DNA from: a bacterium
Lineage (GTDB): Bacteria > Desulfobacterota > Desulfobulbia > Desulfobulbales > Desulfobulbaceae
Direction of reading: 5' to 3'
Assembly: GCA_030538155.1 (NCBI GenBank)
Contig: JAUNUN010000004.1
Location: 1 to 64,000, forward strand
Length of the DNA stretch: 64,000 bases
Below, piece by piece: positions 205 to 7,970 of this stretch. The notes under the pieces are model-generated. The model was not told where the DNA came from. It did not search any database and was given only the letters and a program-made list of their open reading frames with translations. Position numbers and translations under genes: made by a program. How positions within the stretch are numbered: the stretch's first letter is position 1; each line of letters starts with the position of its first letter.

Positions 205-3200
205 TTACCGCATACCACCCTCACTAACGGTGATGCTGCCGCCGTCGGTGAAGATGCCGTTGATGGCCGGGCGGTACATATCTTCGGCATAGAGGGAGGG
301 CCAGGCGTAGCGGCCCGGTGTCACCACCCGCACCCGGTAGAACAGGTTTTGGGATTTGCGCAGGTTCAGGGCCGCCACATAACGGTCTTCCCTGAATTCC
401 TGGTGAAGGATCTTGCGGTCGTCCATGATCTCCGCCACGTTCATGTCACCAATCATCAGTTGCTCTATACCCTCGCCCTGCACCAGGTTGAGGTTTTCTA
501 TTTCCAGCCCGGCCGGGATATGATCCACCACCAGGGCATTGGCAATGGGTGTTGAGCTGTCTACCCGCACATGAACGATCAGTGAGCTGCCGCTCTGGAG
601 TTGACCGCTGCTGACGGGCTTGCCATCGGCACTGTACAGGCTGCGCGAAAGAGCGATGGAACTGCCTTGACCGCTCGGCATCACCGTCGGACGGCCGCTG
701 AAGATCAGTTCGGCATAGAGAGGCCGATCTGCCTTATTGTGCAGACGCAGGCCTGCTGCCAGTTCTTCTGCGGTAAGCGGCAGGATCATGCTCTCCCGTG
801 CCTCCAGCTCCCGGCTGTCGCCGGACTTTTGCACCATGGCTTGCCATGGTGCTTTTTCAGCAGTTTTACCGCTAAAGACATTGCCGCCTGCCAGGAAGAC
901 AGCCATTTTCTCCTGGGTGCTGAGCCAGGCATTCTCTTTCAGCTCACCGGCCGCCACCACAAGCAGGGACTCCATCCCCGCAAGCTCAATACCGTGGCGT
1001 TTGAGAAGCGCATAGCCAAGGGCGTTGTCGCGCAGGTCACTGCCGTAATCCCCCCACCAGTAGCCCTGCAGACGCGGCTTCTGTAAACCTTCGCGGATGG
1101 CTGCCGTGCCCTTGTCGGCATCGCCCATCAGGTGCAGAGACAGGCCGAGTTGCACCAAAGACAGGCCCGAGGCGGCCGAACCACGCAGTTCATAGAGCTG
1201 GCGCAGGGTCGAAAGCGGGGCTCTGGCTTCGCGGGCCAGCACATAGCCGCCATAGGCCAGAACATTGAAACGGCCTGAACCGGCATAAAGCCAATCGCGC
1301 CAGTGGTCGTTCGGGTCGATCTGTACCGCTTCACCACTTATGCCGCTGATGCCTTCCTGCAGTTCCTTAAGCAGGAAATCCATGGCTTTTTTCTGCATGG
1401 CGGCAGGCATTTCAAAGCCCTGATCACGCGCATCCTGCATGAAGTTGGCCACATAGGCGCTCAACCAGTACTCGCTGTTCTGCGCAGTGCCCCACAGGCT
1501 GAAGCCGCCGTTGGCAGCCTGCTGCGCACTCAGGCGGCTAATGGCCTTGGCCACCATTTCATTGCGCTGGGCCAGGGTAAAGGGTTTGAGCCCCAACGAG
1601 CGGGCCTTGTCTTCATCTATAAAGAGATGCGGATAGGCGCTGCTGACGGTTTGCTCCGCACAGCCGTAAGGATAGGTGAGCAGGCCCTGCACCGCGCTGC
1701 GCACATCTAGGGGCGGCGTATCCGACAGGCTCAGATGCGCCTGCACCGAAGCCGGTATCAAGCCGCCCAGGGCGGCCTCGCGGATGGTGAAGGCCGCGCC
1801 GGAACGTACTTCATAAAATCTGCGTTGCTGCTGTTCGGGTGTGAGCGGCTGCACCTGCAGGCCAAAGCTGCGCTCCAGTTTGATCGGGCCGGCACCGCTT
1901 GTGCCCTCCACCTGCACCCGCAAATCGGCCAGACCAAGGAACTGTTTATCCGCCTGGATGTTGAATTTGAGGATGGATTTTTGTTGATCCGCCAAGGTCA
2001 GACGCCGCTCCGGATTGTGAACGAGCACCCCCGAGGTGGAGGGCAAGCGTACCGTGAGCACGGCGCGGCCGCCGGAGAGGTTGTGCAGATCAAGGGCCAG
2101 GGCCGCCTCATCGCCCACGCTGATAAAGCGCGGGGTGGAGAGTTCGGCCACCAGAGGAGCCGCGACCACCACTTCGCTTTCGGCTGAGCCATAGCTGTCT
2201 GCAGTGGCGGCCACGGCCATCAATCGCAAAGTGCCGTTAAAATCCGGCACCGGCAGGTTGACGGTGGCCTCTCCGTTGGCATCCAATTGTACCGGCCCGG
2301 AAAAGATATCCACCAGACGCACCTTTTTGGGCAGGCCCTTGGTGGTTTTGGGGGCCGCATCACCGCCGTAGCGCAGCTTGCCCTTCTTGCCCGCCATTTT
2401 TTCAATCAGGCGGCCGTAGATGTCGTGCAAGTCCGCACCGTAGCGCAACTGCCCGAAAAAGAAGGCAAATGGGTTTGGCGTGGCAAAATTGGTGATATTC
2501 AAGATACCCGCATCCACGGCCGAAAGGGTGAGCATGGCCTCTTGTCCTTTGGCCGCGGGCACCTTGACCCGCACCTGCATATCCTGTTCGGGCCGCATCG
2601 TGGCAGGCGCATCGAGTGTAAGCTGCAGGGCGCGGCTCTCGCGTTCAAGCGGCAGGGGCACGATGCCGAGCGCCCGCGCGGGCGTAACCCGGTCGCCCTC
2701 GCTGCCGGGCCGCAGCACCAGCACGGTTACGTACAGGTCATGACGCTGCCAGCTCGCATCTACCGGAATGCTTATCGAGGTACCGGCCGCAGGCATGAGC
2801 ATGCGCTTGGTCCACAGGGTGCGATCCCCTTCAACCGTAATCAGGGCCTGGCCGCCATGGGGCGGGGTGATGGTGAGAAGGGCCTGGTCGCGCCCCTCTT
2901 GGTAAGCCGGTTTGTCCAGCTTCAGGGCCACCCGATCGGGCCGAATGCCCCGCTCTTCGTCGCCCTTGGCGCTCCAGCCCGCATAGAAGCGGTACTTCAG
3001 GGTCCGGCTGTTTTCCGGATCAGTAATTTCCAGACGATAGCGGCCATACTCCACCGGCAGGGTCAGGCCGCCGCGCTGTCCGACGGCAATGCTGACAGAC
3101 GTGGTTGCCACCAGCTCATCGGTTTCGGTGAAGCCGGAATTCCAGCCGCGCTCATCATCAAAGCGCCAGTAGTAGTTGCGGTTTTCCCGGAAGAGCCGTA

Positions 3201-5367
3201 CCGGCAGGCTGGAAGCGGCCAAGAGTTGACCATCCAGCCCGGCCCGCACCACTTCGAACTGCACCGGCGCATTTTCGCGGGCATAGTCGCCCACAAAAAG
3301 CGGCCGCACACCCACCAGCACCTGGGCCGGCCACACAACCCGATCTAGGCTGCGCACCACGGGGCGGCCCCCACTTTCCAGGAGGCTGATGGTGGCATGC
3401 ACGTTCACCGGCGAATTGCGCCTGGCCGCAGGGGAGAGATCCACCTCCACGACACCCTTGCCCTCGGTATCCAGTTGCAACTCAGGCAATTCCTGGCGGA
3501 CATTGAGGGTATCCTCGTTGACATCGCCAAAGATAAAGCCCGGCAATACCTCCTCAAGCGGGTTGCTGTTGCGCTTGAACTGGACCACACCGATGAGGCG
3601 GTTACCAGCCGCAGGCGCACCGTACAGGTAGGTGCCGCCGGCATGCACAGCCAGTTTTTGCTCGGGATCAAGGTTTTCTTTGACCGCATCCAGCTCAAGC
3701 TTCATACGCTCGGGCAAGAACTCCTCCACGCCGAAACGGAACACCGTGGCAGGCACCCGATCTGCCGGGTCGGCGCGCAGTTCCAGCGACCAGAAGCCGG
3801 TGGGCGCATCCAGCGGCAGTTCAATAGTTTGCTGATAGTAACCGGGAAAGCGACCCGGTTGATCGGACTGACCGGACTGCCATGATGCGGTGAACTGCTT
3901 CTTGCCGTCCGGCCGTTTAAGAATGGCCTGCACCGGCAGCGGGCCGAGGGTCTGGCCATCGGCATCGCGGGCCAGAACAGAGACGTCGAAACGCTCGCCC
4001 GGCCGGTAGAGATCGCGGCCGGACCAGGCAAAGAGCCGCACCGGCTTGCCCGGCTCGCCGCTGATACTGAATTCGGACAGATCAAGGGCCGGTTCCTTAA
4101 GGGCAATCATGGCCACCTGGTTGCCGAGCTGGGCTCGGATAACCTTTGCACCCTGGGGCCGCACCGCAAAATGCGCCCTGCCCTCCTTGTCGCTCTGGCC
4201 GCGCGCCAGTTGCTTGCCCGCAGCATCCAGCCAGCGCACCTCCACCTGGGCCACGCCACGGCCGTTTAAAAGCGAGCTTAAGTATACATCCGCGCTTTTC
4301 GGAAACAGACGCGCATGCAGGCCCAGATCGCTGACATAAAAATAGCTGACCTGGTATTCGTAGCGGAAACGGCCCGGTTCGCTCATCACCGCCACGTATA
4401 CACCAGGCCGGCTCAGCTCTTTAACATCCTCCACCGGCAGGAAGGTAACGCTGCGGCGGTTGGCTTTTTGTTCGGTAGTAAAGCGGCCGCTGTACACGCT
4501 CTCGCTCAGTTCGTGCATGCGGTCAAGCGTCCAGTAGTCGATCGCGCCGCGCAAATCGGTGCGGTCATCGTTATAGCGGCTCTCGCCGTCATCCTCGCGG
4601 ATATCGGAAACCACCTTGCCCGGCGGCGAGCTGATGACGCGGTCGAGAAAGGTGGGCAATTTTTCTTCCCGCACCTTGAGAAACTGCACATCCACCTCGG
4701 GCACGTTGACGGTTACCACGGGCAGACCGCCATTCTGGCCGGCGGGCAGAACCATGCCCCGGCTGGCAAAGTAGTAGGCCGGAGTCACTGCGGCGGTGCG
4801 GATGAGGTAGGTTGCACCATTGGCGAGGGTGCGGCCGAGTTTGTCCGTCAGTTGCGAGGCAATCACCACCACATAGCGGCTTTCCGGGCTGATATGTGGG
4901 AAGTAGAGCAGGCGTGGATTGTCGCCCACCACCCAAGCCCCCTGCACCGGTTCTGCGCCGGGAAAATCACTGGTGCTGATTTTTTCGGCGGTCGCGGGTT
5001 TTGCTGGCCGGCTTTCGACTGCTTCGCCCTCCTCTTCCGTGACCGCACTTTTGACCTCGGCATCTTGCGGCAGGCGCAACACCTTGAGGTAGCGGTCATA
5101 GGAGGCGGTGCTGTCCAGCGGTTCGCTGAAGGTGAGCGCTAGGGCAGGCGAACCATCCAGATCGCGCTCCGCCGCATCCACCAGAGTGAAGGGGCCGGGT
5201 TTTACGGCGTGTGCGGCATTTACGGCCGATGTTGCCGTTGCCGCATTTGCTGCACTTGCCCCAGCCTTGGCTGAGGCAGATTGCGTACCCATGCCGCTCA
5301 AACTGAAGGCGACCAGGGCGCTGATTGCACAAAGCACCAGCGCGGCCAACATACTTTTTTTCAACAT
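205..5367 (-). CDS. Secreted bacterial alpha-2-macroglobulin (YfhM-like protease trap)
   Basis: A protein of about 1720 residues in the bacterial alpha-2-macroglobulin family: periplasmic or envelope protease traps that react covalently with attacking proteases through an internal thioester. The thioester motif CAEQ is present (Cys about residue 1236, within YGCAEQT), preceded by repeated MG-type beta domains and followed by the alpha-helical thioester-domain region and a C-terminal receptor-like domain. The length fits the family. The start is set at 5367 because AAGGAG lies 6 bases upstream of that ATG; an in-frame ATG at 5388 would put the ribosome site inside the gene. The N-terminus is a Sec signal peptide ending ..QSASA without a good lipobox, unlike the E. 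coli lipoprotein. The usual partner pbpC is not adjacent. Confidence 0.93.
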   Translation of the reverse strand: MLKKSMLAALVLCAISALVAFSLSGMGTQSASAKAGASAANAATATSAVNAAHAVKPGPFTLVDAAERDLDGSPALALTFSEPLDSTASYDRYLKVLRLPQDAEVKSAVTEEEGEAVESRPAKPATAEKISTSDFPGAEPVQGAWVVGDNPRLLYFPHISPESRYVVVIASQLTDKLGRTLANGATYLIRTAAVTPAYYFASRGMVLPAGQNGGLPVVTVNVPEVDVQFLKVREEKLPTFLDRVISSPPGKVVSDIREDDGESRYNDDRTDLRGAIDYWTLDRMHELSESVYSGRFTTEQKANRRSVTFLPVEDVKELSRPGVYVAVMSEPGRFRYEYQVSYFYVSDLGLHARLFPKSADVYLSSLLNGRGVAQVEVRWLDAAGKQLARGQSDKEGRAHFAVRPQGAKVIRAQLGNQVAMIALKEPALDLSEFSISGEPGKPVRLFAWSGRDLYRPGERFDVSVLARDADGQTLGPLPVQAILKRPDGKKQFTASWQSGQSDQPGRFPGYYQQTIELPLDAPTGFWSLELRADPADRVPATVFRFGVEEFLPERMKLELDAVKENLDPEQKLAVHAGGTYLYGAPAAGNRLIGVVQFKRNSNPLEEVLPGFIFGDVNEDTLNVRQELPELQLDTEGKGVVEVDLSPAARRNSPVNVHATISLLESGGRPVVRSLDRVVWPAQVLVGVRPLFVGDYARENAPVQFEVVRAGLDGQLLAASSLPVRLFRENRNYYWRFDDERGWNSGFTETDELVATTSVSIAVGQRGGLTLPVEYGRYRLEITDPENSRTLKYRFYAGWSAKGDEERGIRPDRVALKLDKPAYQEGRDQALLTITPPHGGQALITVEGDRTLWTKRMLMPAAGTSISIPVDASWQRHDLYVTVLVLRPGSEGDRVTPARALGIVPLPLERESRALQLTLDAPATMRPEQDMQVRVKVPAAKGQEAMLTLSAVDAGILNITNFATPNPFAFFFGQLRYGADLHDIYGRLIEKMAGKKGKLRYGGDAAPKTTKGLPKKVRLVDIFSGPVQLDANGEATVNLPVPDFNGTLRLMAVAATADSYGSAESEVVVAAPLVAELSTPRFISVGDEAALALDLHNLSGGRAVLTVRLPSTSGVLVHNPERRLTLADQQKSILKFNIQADKQFLGLADLRVQVEGTSGAGPIKLERSFGLQVQPLTPEQQQRRFYEVRSGAAFTIREAALGGLIPASVQAHLSLSDTPPLDVRSAVQGLLTYPYGCAEQTVSSAYPHLFIDEDKARSLGLKPFTLAQRNEMVAKAISRLSAQQAANGGFSLWGTAQNSEYWLSAYVANFMQDARDQGFEMPAAMQKKAMDFLLKELQEGISGISGEAVQIDPNDHWRDWLYAGSGRFNVLAYGGYVLAREARAPLSTLRQLYELRGSAASGLSLVQLGLSLHLMGDADKGTAAIREGLQKPRLQGYWWGDYGSDLRDNALGYALLKRHGIELAGMESLLVVAAGELKENAWLSTQEKMAVFLAGGNVFSGKTAEKAPWQAMVQKSGDSRELEARESMILPLTAEELAAGLRLHNKADRPLYAELIFSGRPTVMPSGQGSSIALSRSLYSADGKPVSSGQLQSGSSLIVHVRVDSSTPIANALVVDHIPAGLEIENLNLVQGEGIEQLMIGDMNVAEIMDDRKILHQEFREDRYVAALNLRKSQNLFYRVRVVTPGRYAWPSLYAEDMYRPAINGIFTDGGSITVSEGGMR

Positions 5368-5476
5368 ACGAAGCTCCTTAGGCAACATATCCCAGCTGCC
5401 CTGCAGGTGAAAACGACTGCACCCGATGGCCGGGCCTTATCCTCAATAACCCTCTATGATTACTGATTGTTTCAGG

Positions 5477-5719
5477 TTAACGAAGGTCTGATGTCTCATC
5501 TTCTACAACACTTCTCGCCTGCCGCCTTGCCAGCAGTTCCTGCACCTTGCGGCCGCAGCGCTTTCCTTTGCAGGGGCCCTGGCCAATGCCGGTCTGCAGG
5601 GCAATTTCCTCAAAACTTCCTGCACCCGCCTCGATGGCCTCGATAATGCGGATCAATTTGATACCCCGGCAGATGCAGCCGGGCCGCAGCTTGGCGCGCA
5701 GGCGCTCTTCGGCATCCAT
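5477..5719 (-). CDS. BFD-like [2Fe-2S] ferredoxin domain protein
   Basis: An 80-residue protein made almost entirely of a BFD-like (bacterioferritin-associated ferredoxin) domain. It has CICRG near residues 16-20 and GQGPCKGKRC near residues 46-55, giving the four cysteines (CxC...CxxxxC) that bind a [2Fe-2S] cluster in this family. It starts one base after the uvrC stop codon with GGAGG overlapping the end of uvrC, so the two are very probably translationally coupled. Stand-alone BFD domains usually accept or donate electrons for a partner; the partner here is unknown. The C-terminal tail (about residues 64-80) is polar and lacks recognisable features. Confidence 0.85.
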   Translation of the reverse strand: MDAEERLRAKLRPGCICRGIKLIRIIEAIEAGAGSFEEIALQTGIGQGPCKGKRCGRKVQELLARRQARSVVEDETSDLR

Positions 5720-5720
5720 A

Positions 5721-7601
5721 CTACACCTCCGGCTGCAGTTGTTCCTTGATGGCCTGCGCCAATTCCCGGCCTATGCCCGGCACTGCCGCCAAATCCTCAA
5801 GTTCTGCCTCCCGGATGCGGCGCACACTGCCGAAGCTCTTCAGTAACTGTTTTTTCCGTTGCGGGCCAATGCCCGGCACCTGGTCGAGCACGGAGTTGAA
5901 CTGAGCCTTGCCGCGCAAACGGCGATGGAAGCTGATGCCGAAACGGTGGGCCTCATCGCGGATGCGCATTAAATAGAGCAAAACCGGGGCATGGCCGGGC
6001 AGAAGGATGGCGTCCTTGCGGCCGGGCCTGAACAGCTTTTCGCCTTCATCCTCTTTCTCCTCGGCAATGGCCACTAGGTCTATCTCCTGCAACAAGTCGA
6101 AACGGGCCAGCACCTCAACCGCCACCTGGAGCTGCCCCTTGCCGCCATCTAAAAGAAGCATATCCGGCAGATTCTGTTCGGTCAGGCCCTTTCCCAGCCT
6201 CCGTTCCAGCACCTCGCGCATCATGGCGTAGTCGTCGGGCGTGTCCTTGCCGCGGATACGGTAGTGGCGGAAGCGGCGCGGCTCCTTTTCGCCATGTACA
6301 AAAGAGACGAGAGAACCCACCGCCTGCTTGCCCTGCAGGTTGGAGATATCCAGGCACTCGATCACCTCGGGCTCGCGGGCCAGCTTCAACTTGTGGCGCA
6401 GGCTCTGGGACAGGTTCTGCCAGGCCGCCTCTTTTTTGGCCTCTTCGGAAAAGAGCTGCTCGGCATTGGCGGCCGCCATCTGCATGAGCTGCATGCGCTT
6501 GCCCCGCTGCGGCCGCAACAGGGCCACCGGACCTTCGCGCAGTTCGGCCAGGCGCTCGGCAATGAGGTCTTCATCTTCAAGGCTACAGGGCAAAAGCAGC
6601 TCGCGCGGCGGCTGCCGCTGCACTGAATAGTACTGTAAGAGCATCTGGGAGAGCAGCGCACCATCTTCACCGATGGGATCTGCCAGAAAAAATTGCTGCG
6701 CGCCGGTGATCATGCCGCCGCGCACAAAGAGAATGGCAATGCCCACCGAGGCGTCCTGTCGGTGCAGGCCAAAGACATCCTGATCCAGGCTGTGCCCGGC
6801 AGCCACCATCTGGCGCTCGGTGGTGCTGTCCAGGGCCTGGAGCTGATCGCGGTACTGGGCCGCCTGCTCAAAGGCGAGCGCTGCCGAGGCCGTCTGCATG
6901 CGTTCTTCCAGGGCCTGGCGCACTCGGTCGGTCTTACCCTCCAAAATAGCCAACACCGCCTCCACCATGCGGCCGTATTCCTCCCGGCTCACCTTGCCGG
7001 CACAGGGCGCAAGGCAGCGGCCCATCTGGTAGTTCAGGCAGGGTCGCTCACGTCGGCGCATGGTGCGGCAGTGGCGCAGCGGGAACTGGGCATAGAGCAG
7101 TTGCAGGGTGGCACGCATAGCACCGGGCGCGGCATAGGGGCCGAAGTAGCGGTTGCCGTCGCGCAGGCGTTTACGGGTGACGCTTACCCTGGGCCAGTCA
7201 TCCTGGGTGCTGACTTTGATGAGGGGGTAATTTTTGTCATCCCGTAGGATGACGTTGTAGCGGGGACGGTGACGCTTGATCAGCGAGGCCTCGAGGATGA
7301 GCGCCTCCTTTTCCGTGGTGGTGAGGATAGTCTCCACTTTGCGCACATGCGAGAGCATGACCGCAGTTTTGGAGTGGGCCGAGCCGCTGTAGTGCGCGTA
7401 CTGGGCCAGGCGTTTGCGCAAATCCCGCGCCTTGCCCACGTAGAGCACCTCGCGACGGCCCAGCATCTGGTAGACGCCGGGCCCATGACTCACGGTGGCG
7501 AGAAAGGCAGAGGAAAGCGGTTTTTCCCGGTTCTTCGTCTCTGTGCCCTGCGCGACCTGCTCGCCGCCGGCCTGCTGTGTTTCGTCCTGCTCTTGCTGCA
7601 T
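5721..7601 (-). CDS. uvrC: UvrC, excinuclease ABC subunit C
   Basis: Nucleotide-excision repair nuclease that makes both incisions around a bulky lesion after UvrAB loading. It has the N-terminal GIY-YIG nuclease (GVYQML..LYVGKA, residues 42-58), the cysteine-rich segment, a UVR motif, the RNase H-like endonuclease domain, and C-terminal tandem HhH (VPGIGPQRKKQLL..VPGIGRELAQAI). Four cysteines at about 178, 188, 196 and 200 match the spacing of those reported to hold a [4Fe-4S] cluster in E. coli UvrC. The first 30 residues are a low-complexity extension beyond the usual start and no clear Shine-Dalgarno sequence precedes the ATG, so the true start may be a little downstream. uvrB lies 11 kb away. 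Confidence 0.96.
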   Translation of the reverse strand: MQQEQDETQQAGGEQVAQGTETKNREKPLSSAFLATVSHGPGVYQMLGRREVLYVGKARDLRKRLAQYAHYSGSAHSKTAVMLSHVRKVETILTTTEKEALILEASLIKRHRPRYNVILRDDKNYPLIKVSTQDDWPRVSVTRKRLRDGNRYFGPYAAPGAMRATLQLLYAQFPLRHCRTMRRRERPCLNYQMGRCLAPCAGKVSREEYGRMVEAVLAILEGKTDRVRQALEERMQTASAALAFEQAAQYRDQLQALDSTTERQMVAAGHSLDQDVFGLHRQDASVGIAILFVRGGMITGAQQFFLADPIGEDGALLSQMLLQYYSVQRQPPRELLLPCSLEDEDLIAERLAELREGPVALLRPQRGKRMQLMQMAAANAEQLFSEEAKKEAAWQNLSQSLRHKLKLAREPEVIECLDISNLQGKQAVGSLVSFVHGEKEPRRFRHYRIRGKDTPDDYAMMREVLERRLGKGLTEQNLPDMLLLDGGKGQLQVAVEVLARFDLLQEIDLVAIAEEKEDEGEKLFRPGRKDAILLPGHAPVLLYLMRIRDEAHRFGISFHRRLRGKAQFNSVLDQVPGIGPQRKKQLLKSFGSVRRIREAELEDLAAVPGIGRELAQAIKEQLQPEV

Positions 7602-7622: not shown

Positions 7623-7970
7623 TCATGGCTTGATATAGGCGTAGCCGTCCTGCTGCAAGACAATGAGCTCAACCACGCCGGCCGGTATGATCACACAGCC
7701 GGGTACAAGTTCTGCGGCATTTACCCCGAACTTACTTAAGGCATTGCGGCAGGCCTTGAAGACCACCCGCTGCTCCTGCAGGCTGCGGATAGCATCGGCA
7801 TGGTTGTTGCCCTCCTGCCGCAGCATCTGCACGGCCGGGCCGTTAAAGAGCATGACCACATCAGAGTGATCGTCAGGAATGGCCTTGAGCAGGTTGGCGG
7901 CATTGTTGAGGCTGAGGCCGAAAATCTGGCCGTCATTGGCGTCCACATGAAAGACTGCGCGGTAAACCAT
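7623..7970 (-). CDS. DsrE-family sulfur-relay-like protein
   Basis: A 115-residue protein with the DsrE/DsrF-like fold signature: a central VVMLFNGPAVQML strand-loop, an RVVFKACRNAL segment with Cys74, and a VPGCVIIPAGVVELI end with Cys92. The family includes DsrEFH/TusBCD sulfur carriers but also many stand-alone members without known substrate. Cys74 is at the position where an active cysteine often sits in this group. It follows the double-ATPase gene after 17 bases and has a GGAGT ribosome site. Its role is unassigned; sulfur transfer is only a family-based guess. Confidence 0.8.
   Translation of the reverse strand: MVYRAVFHVDANDGQIFGLSLNNAANLLKAIPDDHSDVVMLFNGPAVQMLRQEGNNHADAIRSLQEQRVVFKACRNALSKFGVNAAELVPGCVIIPAGVVELIVLQQDGYAYIKP

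Follow-up and report, generated by a model that had tools for sequence, protein, structure and literature searches.

GlpA-type dehydrogenases are flavoenzymes of which a BFD domain forms part, and BFD domains of this kind end in C-x4-C. Bfd proper is thought to promote the release of iron from bacterioferritin (excerpt of PMC7762939). On the side of DNA repair, the title of Silva et al. 2020, as given in citing papers, calls the [4Fe-4S] cluster of UvrC O2-sensitive, and a passage in a paper citing Silva et al. 2020 states that the cluster loop participates in complexes of UvrC with double-stranded DNA. In the open-access literature, none of the titles and abstract openings among the matches listed links UvrC with a BFD protein.

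The window, by which we mean the whole stretch of 64,000 nucleotides analysed, derives from a member of the Desulfobulbaceae and carries uvrC, which encodes a DNA-repair nuclease, with a small BFD-type gene behind it. The features of the locus are as follows.

205 to 5388, minus strand: large bacterial alpha-2-macroglobulin gene, directly behind the pair (profile match).
5477 to 5719, minus strand: gene of a stand-alone BFD-type protein of 80 amino acids (profile match and alignment A1).
5721 to 7601, minus strand: uvrC, 626 amino acids, with GIY-YIG, UVR, RNase H and helix-hairpin-helix domains (domain and equivalog profiles).
5724 to 5730, minus strand: GGAGGTG, resembling a Shine-Dalgarno site of the BFD gene, within the last uvrC codons (read from the sequence).
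7002 to 7070, minus strand: UvrC cysteines 178, 188, 196 and 200, candidate [4Fe-4S] loop (alignment with E. coli K-12 UvrC).
7623 to 7970, minus strand: DsrE/DsrF-family gene upstream of uvrC, between it and an ABC transporter gene (Pfam profile).

The uvrC product scores 561 bits with TIGR00194 (cut-off 285) and has all four domain types, and is thus a full UvrC. Its cysteines C178, C188, C196 and C200 have aligned counterparts in E. coli UvrC, four cysteines which we take to be the ligands of the E. coli cluster. The preliminary description had placed these cysteines at the reported spacing; this holds for the second and third intervals, which are equal in the two proteins, while the first is C-x9-C in the window and C-x11-C in E. 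coli. As that description also had it, the BFD gene begins one base after uvrC and its putative ribosome site is inside uvrC. The uvrC stop TAG is at 5723-5721, the BFD start ATG at 5719-5717 and the ribosome-site-like GGAGGTG at 5730-5724.

The 80 amino acid open reading frame matches the Fer2_BFD profile (PF04324) with 38.4 bits, above the curated cut-off of 26. Its cysteines 15, 17, 50 and 55, arranged as CxC-x32-C-x4-C, point to a [2Fe-2S] cluster, and of 84 members of the family whose sequences were read 83 have all four. The BFD gene of G023 (L160) is linked to uvrC and has the third cluster cysteine replaced, which makes it a possible natural test of the need for the cluster. The small protein gave two AlphaFold models of low confidence (mean pLDDT 66 and 68), and structure searches with the first of them listed no BFD protein, so that the assignment to the BFD family rests on the sequence profile.

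With the window BFD protein as query, relatives were detected in 25 of 55 near genomes, and an alignment of 22 of its relatives (A1) served as profile query for a wider survey. At E 0.001 it matched in 100 of 257 genomes of the order, 78 of them scoring above 57 bits and the next one 38; across the phylum (395 genomes) eight genomes outside the order exceeded 57 bits, the next reaching 45. Holders of the gene are here the 86 genomes with an A1 score above 57 bits (78 in the order and 8 outside), which are distributed over the families f1 (39), f12 (32, together 71), f4 (6) and f15 (1) and the eight genomes outside the order. The survey covers one phylum plus E. coli K-12 and a single contig search with the window protein, which returned one locus, belonging to the Desulfobulbales. 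Plasmid records gave no match to the BFD protein.

In 66 of the 71 holders of f1 and f12 the BFD gene lies on the same strand at most 700 nt behind uvrC, measured between profile ends (35 of 39 holders in f1, 31 of 32 in f12). The preliminary description had left it to a count in relatives whether the pair reaches beyond this genome, and among the 257 genomes it does. Counted over all genomes with a UvrC match in the two families (61 in f1 and 84 in f12, tallied by eye), the linked pair is present in 66 of 145, many surveyed genomes being incomplete and absence in any single one therefore uncertain. Within f12 it is confined to two genera, g23 (15/16) and g31 (16/17). Five holders are unlinked (G073, G025, G001, G027 and G119). 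The genes of G073 and G025 are found at contig ends, consistent with an assembly break, which on present evidence leaves three of 71 holders with the genes apart: one alpha-amylase-family gene intervenes in G001, about 7 kb on the same strand separates the two in G027, and in G119 they are on different contigs. G027 (L091) is a one-contig genome in which the uvrC match itself is in two pieces, about 7 kb from the BFD gene.

Outside f1 and f12 none of the 15 homologues (six in f4, one in f15, eight outside the order) was found beside uvrC. In 13 of them BFD gene and uvrC are on separate contigs, some of which are short, so that single cases may reflect an assembly break, but the longer ones show no uvrC nearby; in the other two UvrC was not detected. 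The BFD protein family as such is therefore not specific to UvrC. Stand-alone relatives outside the order have recurring surroundings without uvrC, shared by L103 and L100 (G298, G333) and by L104 and L106 (G513, G551), the latter two having the BFD relative near threonine synthase (Pfam on L104, the others by the start of the sequence).

To describe the junction between the two genes 73 loci were read, comprising 63 measurable junctions, 2 fusions and 8 loci whose stretch lacks a BFD gene behind uvrC; the linked G081 was outside this set. The genes overlap in 32 of the 63 junctions and are separated by 0-10 nt in 20, by 11-100 nt in 9 and by over 100 nt in 2, with the BFD gene counted from the start codon closest to the edge of the profile match, by which single values may shift a few codons. 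The flanking genes vary. Of the 38 f1 loci, 26 have the ABC transporter gene of the window upstream of uvrC, and several of the rest are truncated; no f12 locus has it next to uvrC, and six f12 loci have ABC matches well upstream. In G127 the pair is flanked by genes for ThiC and a homocysteine methyltransferase, with a short open reading frame between the latter and the BFD gene. The DsrE-family gene was considered as part of the unit and rejected; among the loci read it is beside uvrC only in the genera g1 and g2, and it probably falls outside the uvrC-BFD unit. The alpha-2-macroglobulin gene is kept behind the pair in G012, and is also found behind uvrC in G021, which has no BFD gene. Downstream of the BFD gene of G014 (L162, 5101-5664) is a gene for an NADPH-dependent FMN reductase, a possible electron source, and L090 (G001) has a similar FMN reductase gene, judged by its like first residues.

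In two genomes, G178 (L110) and G112 (L111), no stop codon separates the UvrC and BFD parts, and one open frame carries GIY-YIG, UVR, both RNase H domains, helix-hairpin-helix and Fer2_BFD by Pfam, with BFD as the C-terminal domain behind the helix-hairpin-helix. The two belong to different genera and have different linkers; in the tree they fall on distinct branches, surrounded by relatives whose pair is unfused. Of the 106 UvrCs whose end could be read, they are the only ones with tails of more than 50 residues beyond the end of the window UvrC, the next longest being 38. An ATG near the old BFD start is retained in both, and either genome may still produce the BFD protein in free form. Each fusion is known from one assembly (that of G178 is 59% complete), and for either alone a sequencing error is possible. 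The association of the BFD gene with uvrC is more than chance, with 66 linked among 71 holders and two fusions among the 66. The coupling to uvrC proposed in the preliminary description is thus well supported by linkage in two families, changing flanks, overlapping or near-touching starts and two fusions. The persistence of the pair amid changing flanks, together with the tight junctions and the fusions, argues for work with UvrC, and we consider a functional partnership of the two proteins highly probable.

A quick tree of 101 UvrC sequences places f1 and f12 in one group (SH-aLRT 90). The label LINKED, given to 61 f1/f12 holders including the unlinked exceptions G001, G025 and G119, changes 13 times on this tree, as against 31.7 in shuffles. 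One old uvrC-BFD arrangement with repeated loss is the simplest reading, transfer being possible, and there have apparently been several losses of the BFD gene. G016 (L045) has a decayed BFD remnant just behind uvrC, and a tblastn check of the 25 partner-less f1/f12 genomes gave, besides this remnant, one weak distant match in G008 and nothing in the others, including G015 with just 107 nt of sequence behind uvrC. G021, closely related to the window genome, lacks the BFD gene, and about 0.1 kb separates its uvrC from the macroglobulin gene. Constraint on the BFD gene shows in its pN/pS of 0.04-0.38 in ten close pairs; the UvrC values are 0.08-0.18, and in seven of the ten UvrC is the more constrained of the two.

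The four-cysteine motif is found in 101 of 101 UvrCs, 65 of 65 from BFD holders and 36 of 36 from genomes without the partner (25 from f1 and f12, 11 from elsewhere in the order), so that retention of the site does not depend on the partner. A scan of 88 f1 and f12 UvrC rows for residues that track the partner (0.57, as against at most 0.46 in 30 within-family label shuffles, which ignore descent) was set aside, the sites being scattered and confounded by descent.

By inference from these sequence comparisons, the BFD protein may be a dedicated electron or cluster partner of UvrC, as was first suggested in the preliminary description. Our overall explanation, to which we would give a probability of roughly 0.47, is a dedicated UvrC accessory in sulfur-metabolising bacteria of two related families of Desulfobulbales which reduces or maintains the [4Fe-4S] cluster of UvrC. 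UvrC and the BFD protein would be made together, and the free BFD protein would sit on or near UvrC, as in the fusions. It would carry a [2Fe-2S] cluster and give electrons to the oxygen-sensitive [4Fe-4S] loop of UvrC; this supply would keep the UvrC cluster reduced, or restore it once oxidised, and thereby allow UvrC to bind and cut DNA. Since relatives live without the BFD gene, the protein would be a helper and not a requirement. Given a partnership with UvrC, we lean slightly towards redox or cluster-maintenance chemistry as its content.

The same linkage and fusions would also suit a redox or iron sensor: bound to UvrC, the [2Fe-2S] protein would turn incision by UvrC or its affinity for DNA on or off according to the supply of oxygen or iron, leaving the cluster of UvrC itself untouched. 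A place near DNA would fit the mostly basic character of the family (calculated pI above 7 in 20 of 22 aligned members), and UvrC retains its cluster site where no BFD partner is present. We nevertheless regard a sensor as rather unlikely, since the protein of 80 amino acids shows neither a sensor domain nor a second set of ligands, and BFD domains of known function other than Bfd carry electrons. The same is reported for Bfd, a BFD protein of known function (excerpt of PMC7762939).

A general small ferredoxin could, alternatively, travel on the uvrC transcript as a bystander and work elsewhere in the cell. Homologues in other surroundings outside f1 and f12, as near threonine synthase, would agree with this, as would the fact that the BFD gene can vanish while uvrC stays. 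It is, however, difficult to reconcile with a pair that persists as its flanks change, mostly at tight distances and with two fusions, and with genes that are apart in just G001, G027 and G119 among 71 holders, and we hold it to be improbable.

Help in building or inserting the [4Fe-4S] cluster of UvrC, in the manner of the BFD domain of NifU, is a quite improbable role in our estimate. The only other Fer2_BFD match in the genome is NifU, upstream of an open reading frame for a NifS-type cysteine desulfurase (by eye), and through the coupling a loading factor would reach UvrC while it is being made. However, a simple cluster-supplying or loading role would sit poorly with the UvrC cysteines kept in all 36 partner-less proteins, and uvrC of E. 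coli does without such a neighbour.

That the protein is a true bacterioferritin-associated ferredoxin releasing stored iron, as its closest solved relatives by profile (Bfd chains, 29 bits) and weak bacterioferritin-model matches in 9 of 55 relatives might suggest, is extremely improbable, and bacterioferritin as its partner was rejected: the window genome (G000) lacks any match to TIGR00754 at E 0.001 and 0 of the 55 relatives exceed the cut-off of this model, a strict one that just 2 of 14 control genomes exceed, and the last cysteine pair is C-x4-C (C50-x4-C55) where Bfd has C-x2-C.

The role of iron-sulfur clusters in DNA-repair enzymes is an open question. Were the UvrC accessory real, it would be a lineage-specific natural redox partner of UvrC, for which the fusions offer ready-made complexes and the partner-less relatives controls, and the effect of electron supply to the cluster on damage binding or incision would be directly testable. 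More tentatively, nucleotide excision repair in these bacteria may have a further component, a [2Fe-2S] redox subunit dedicated to UvrC and in some cases part of the UvrC chain, which would control or protect the [4Fe-4S] cluster and tie repair to the redox state of the cell.

Set beside known systems, UvrC of the window resembles the [4Fe-4S] UvrC of E. coli (Silva et al. 2020, title) in its four aligned cysteines and differs from it in a first interval two residues shorter and in the gene that follows, which in E. coli K-12 is pgsA, with no BFD-like ferredoxin behind uvrC. Like Bfd (PDB 4e6k, 6e6q, 6e6r, 6e6s), the BFD protein is small and stand-alone, with a profile match spanning CxC and the third cysteine; the aligned Bfd chains, however, have C-G-K-C as second pair where the window protein has its C-x4-C end, and the family described here is mostly basic, linked to uvrC and present in a genome without a bacterioferritin match. 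The BFD domain of NifU belongs to the same Pfam family, and NifU is present in the window genome, but NifU is a three-domain scaffold whereas the BFD domain of the window is on its own. The GlpA-type dehydrogenases (TIGR03377) give a weak match over their BFD part (E 0.005), and in contrast to these enzymes the domain is found here either alone or on UvrC.
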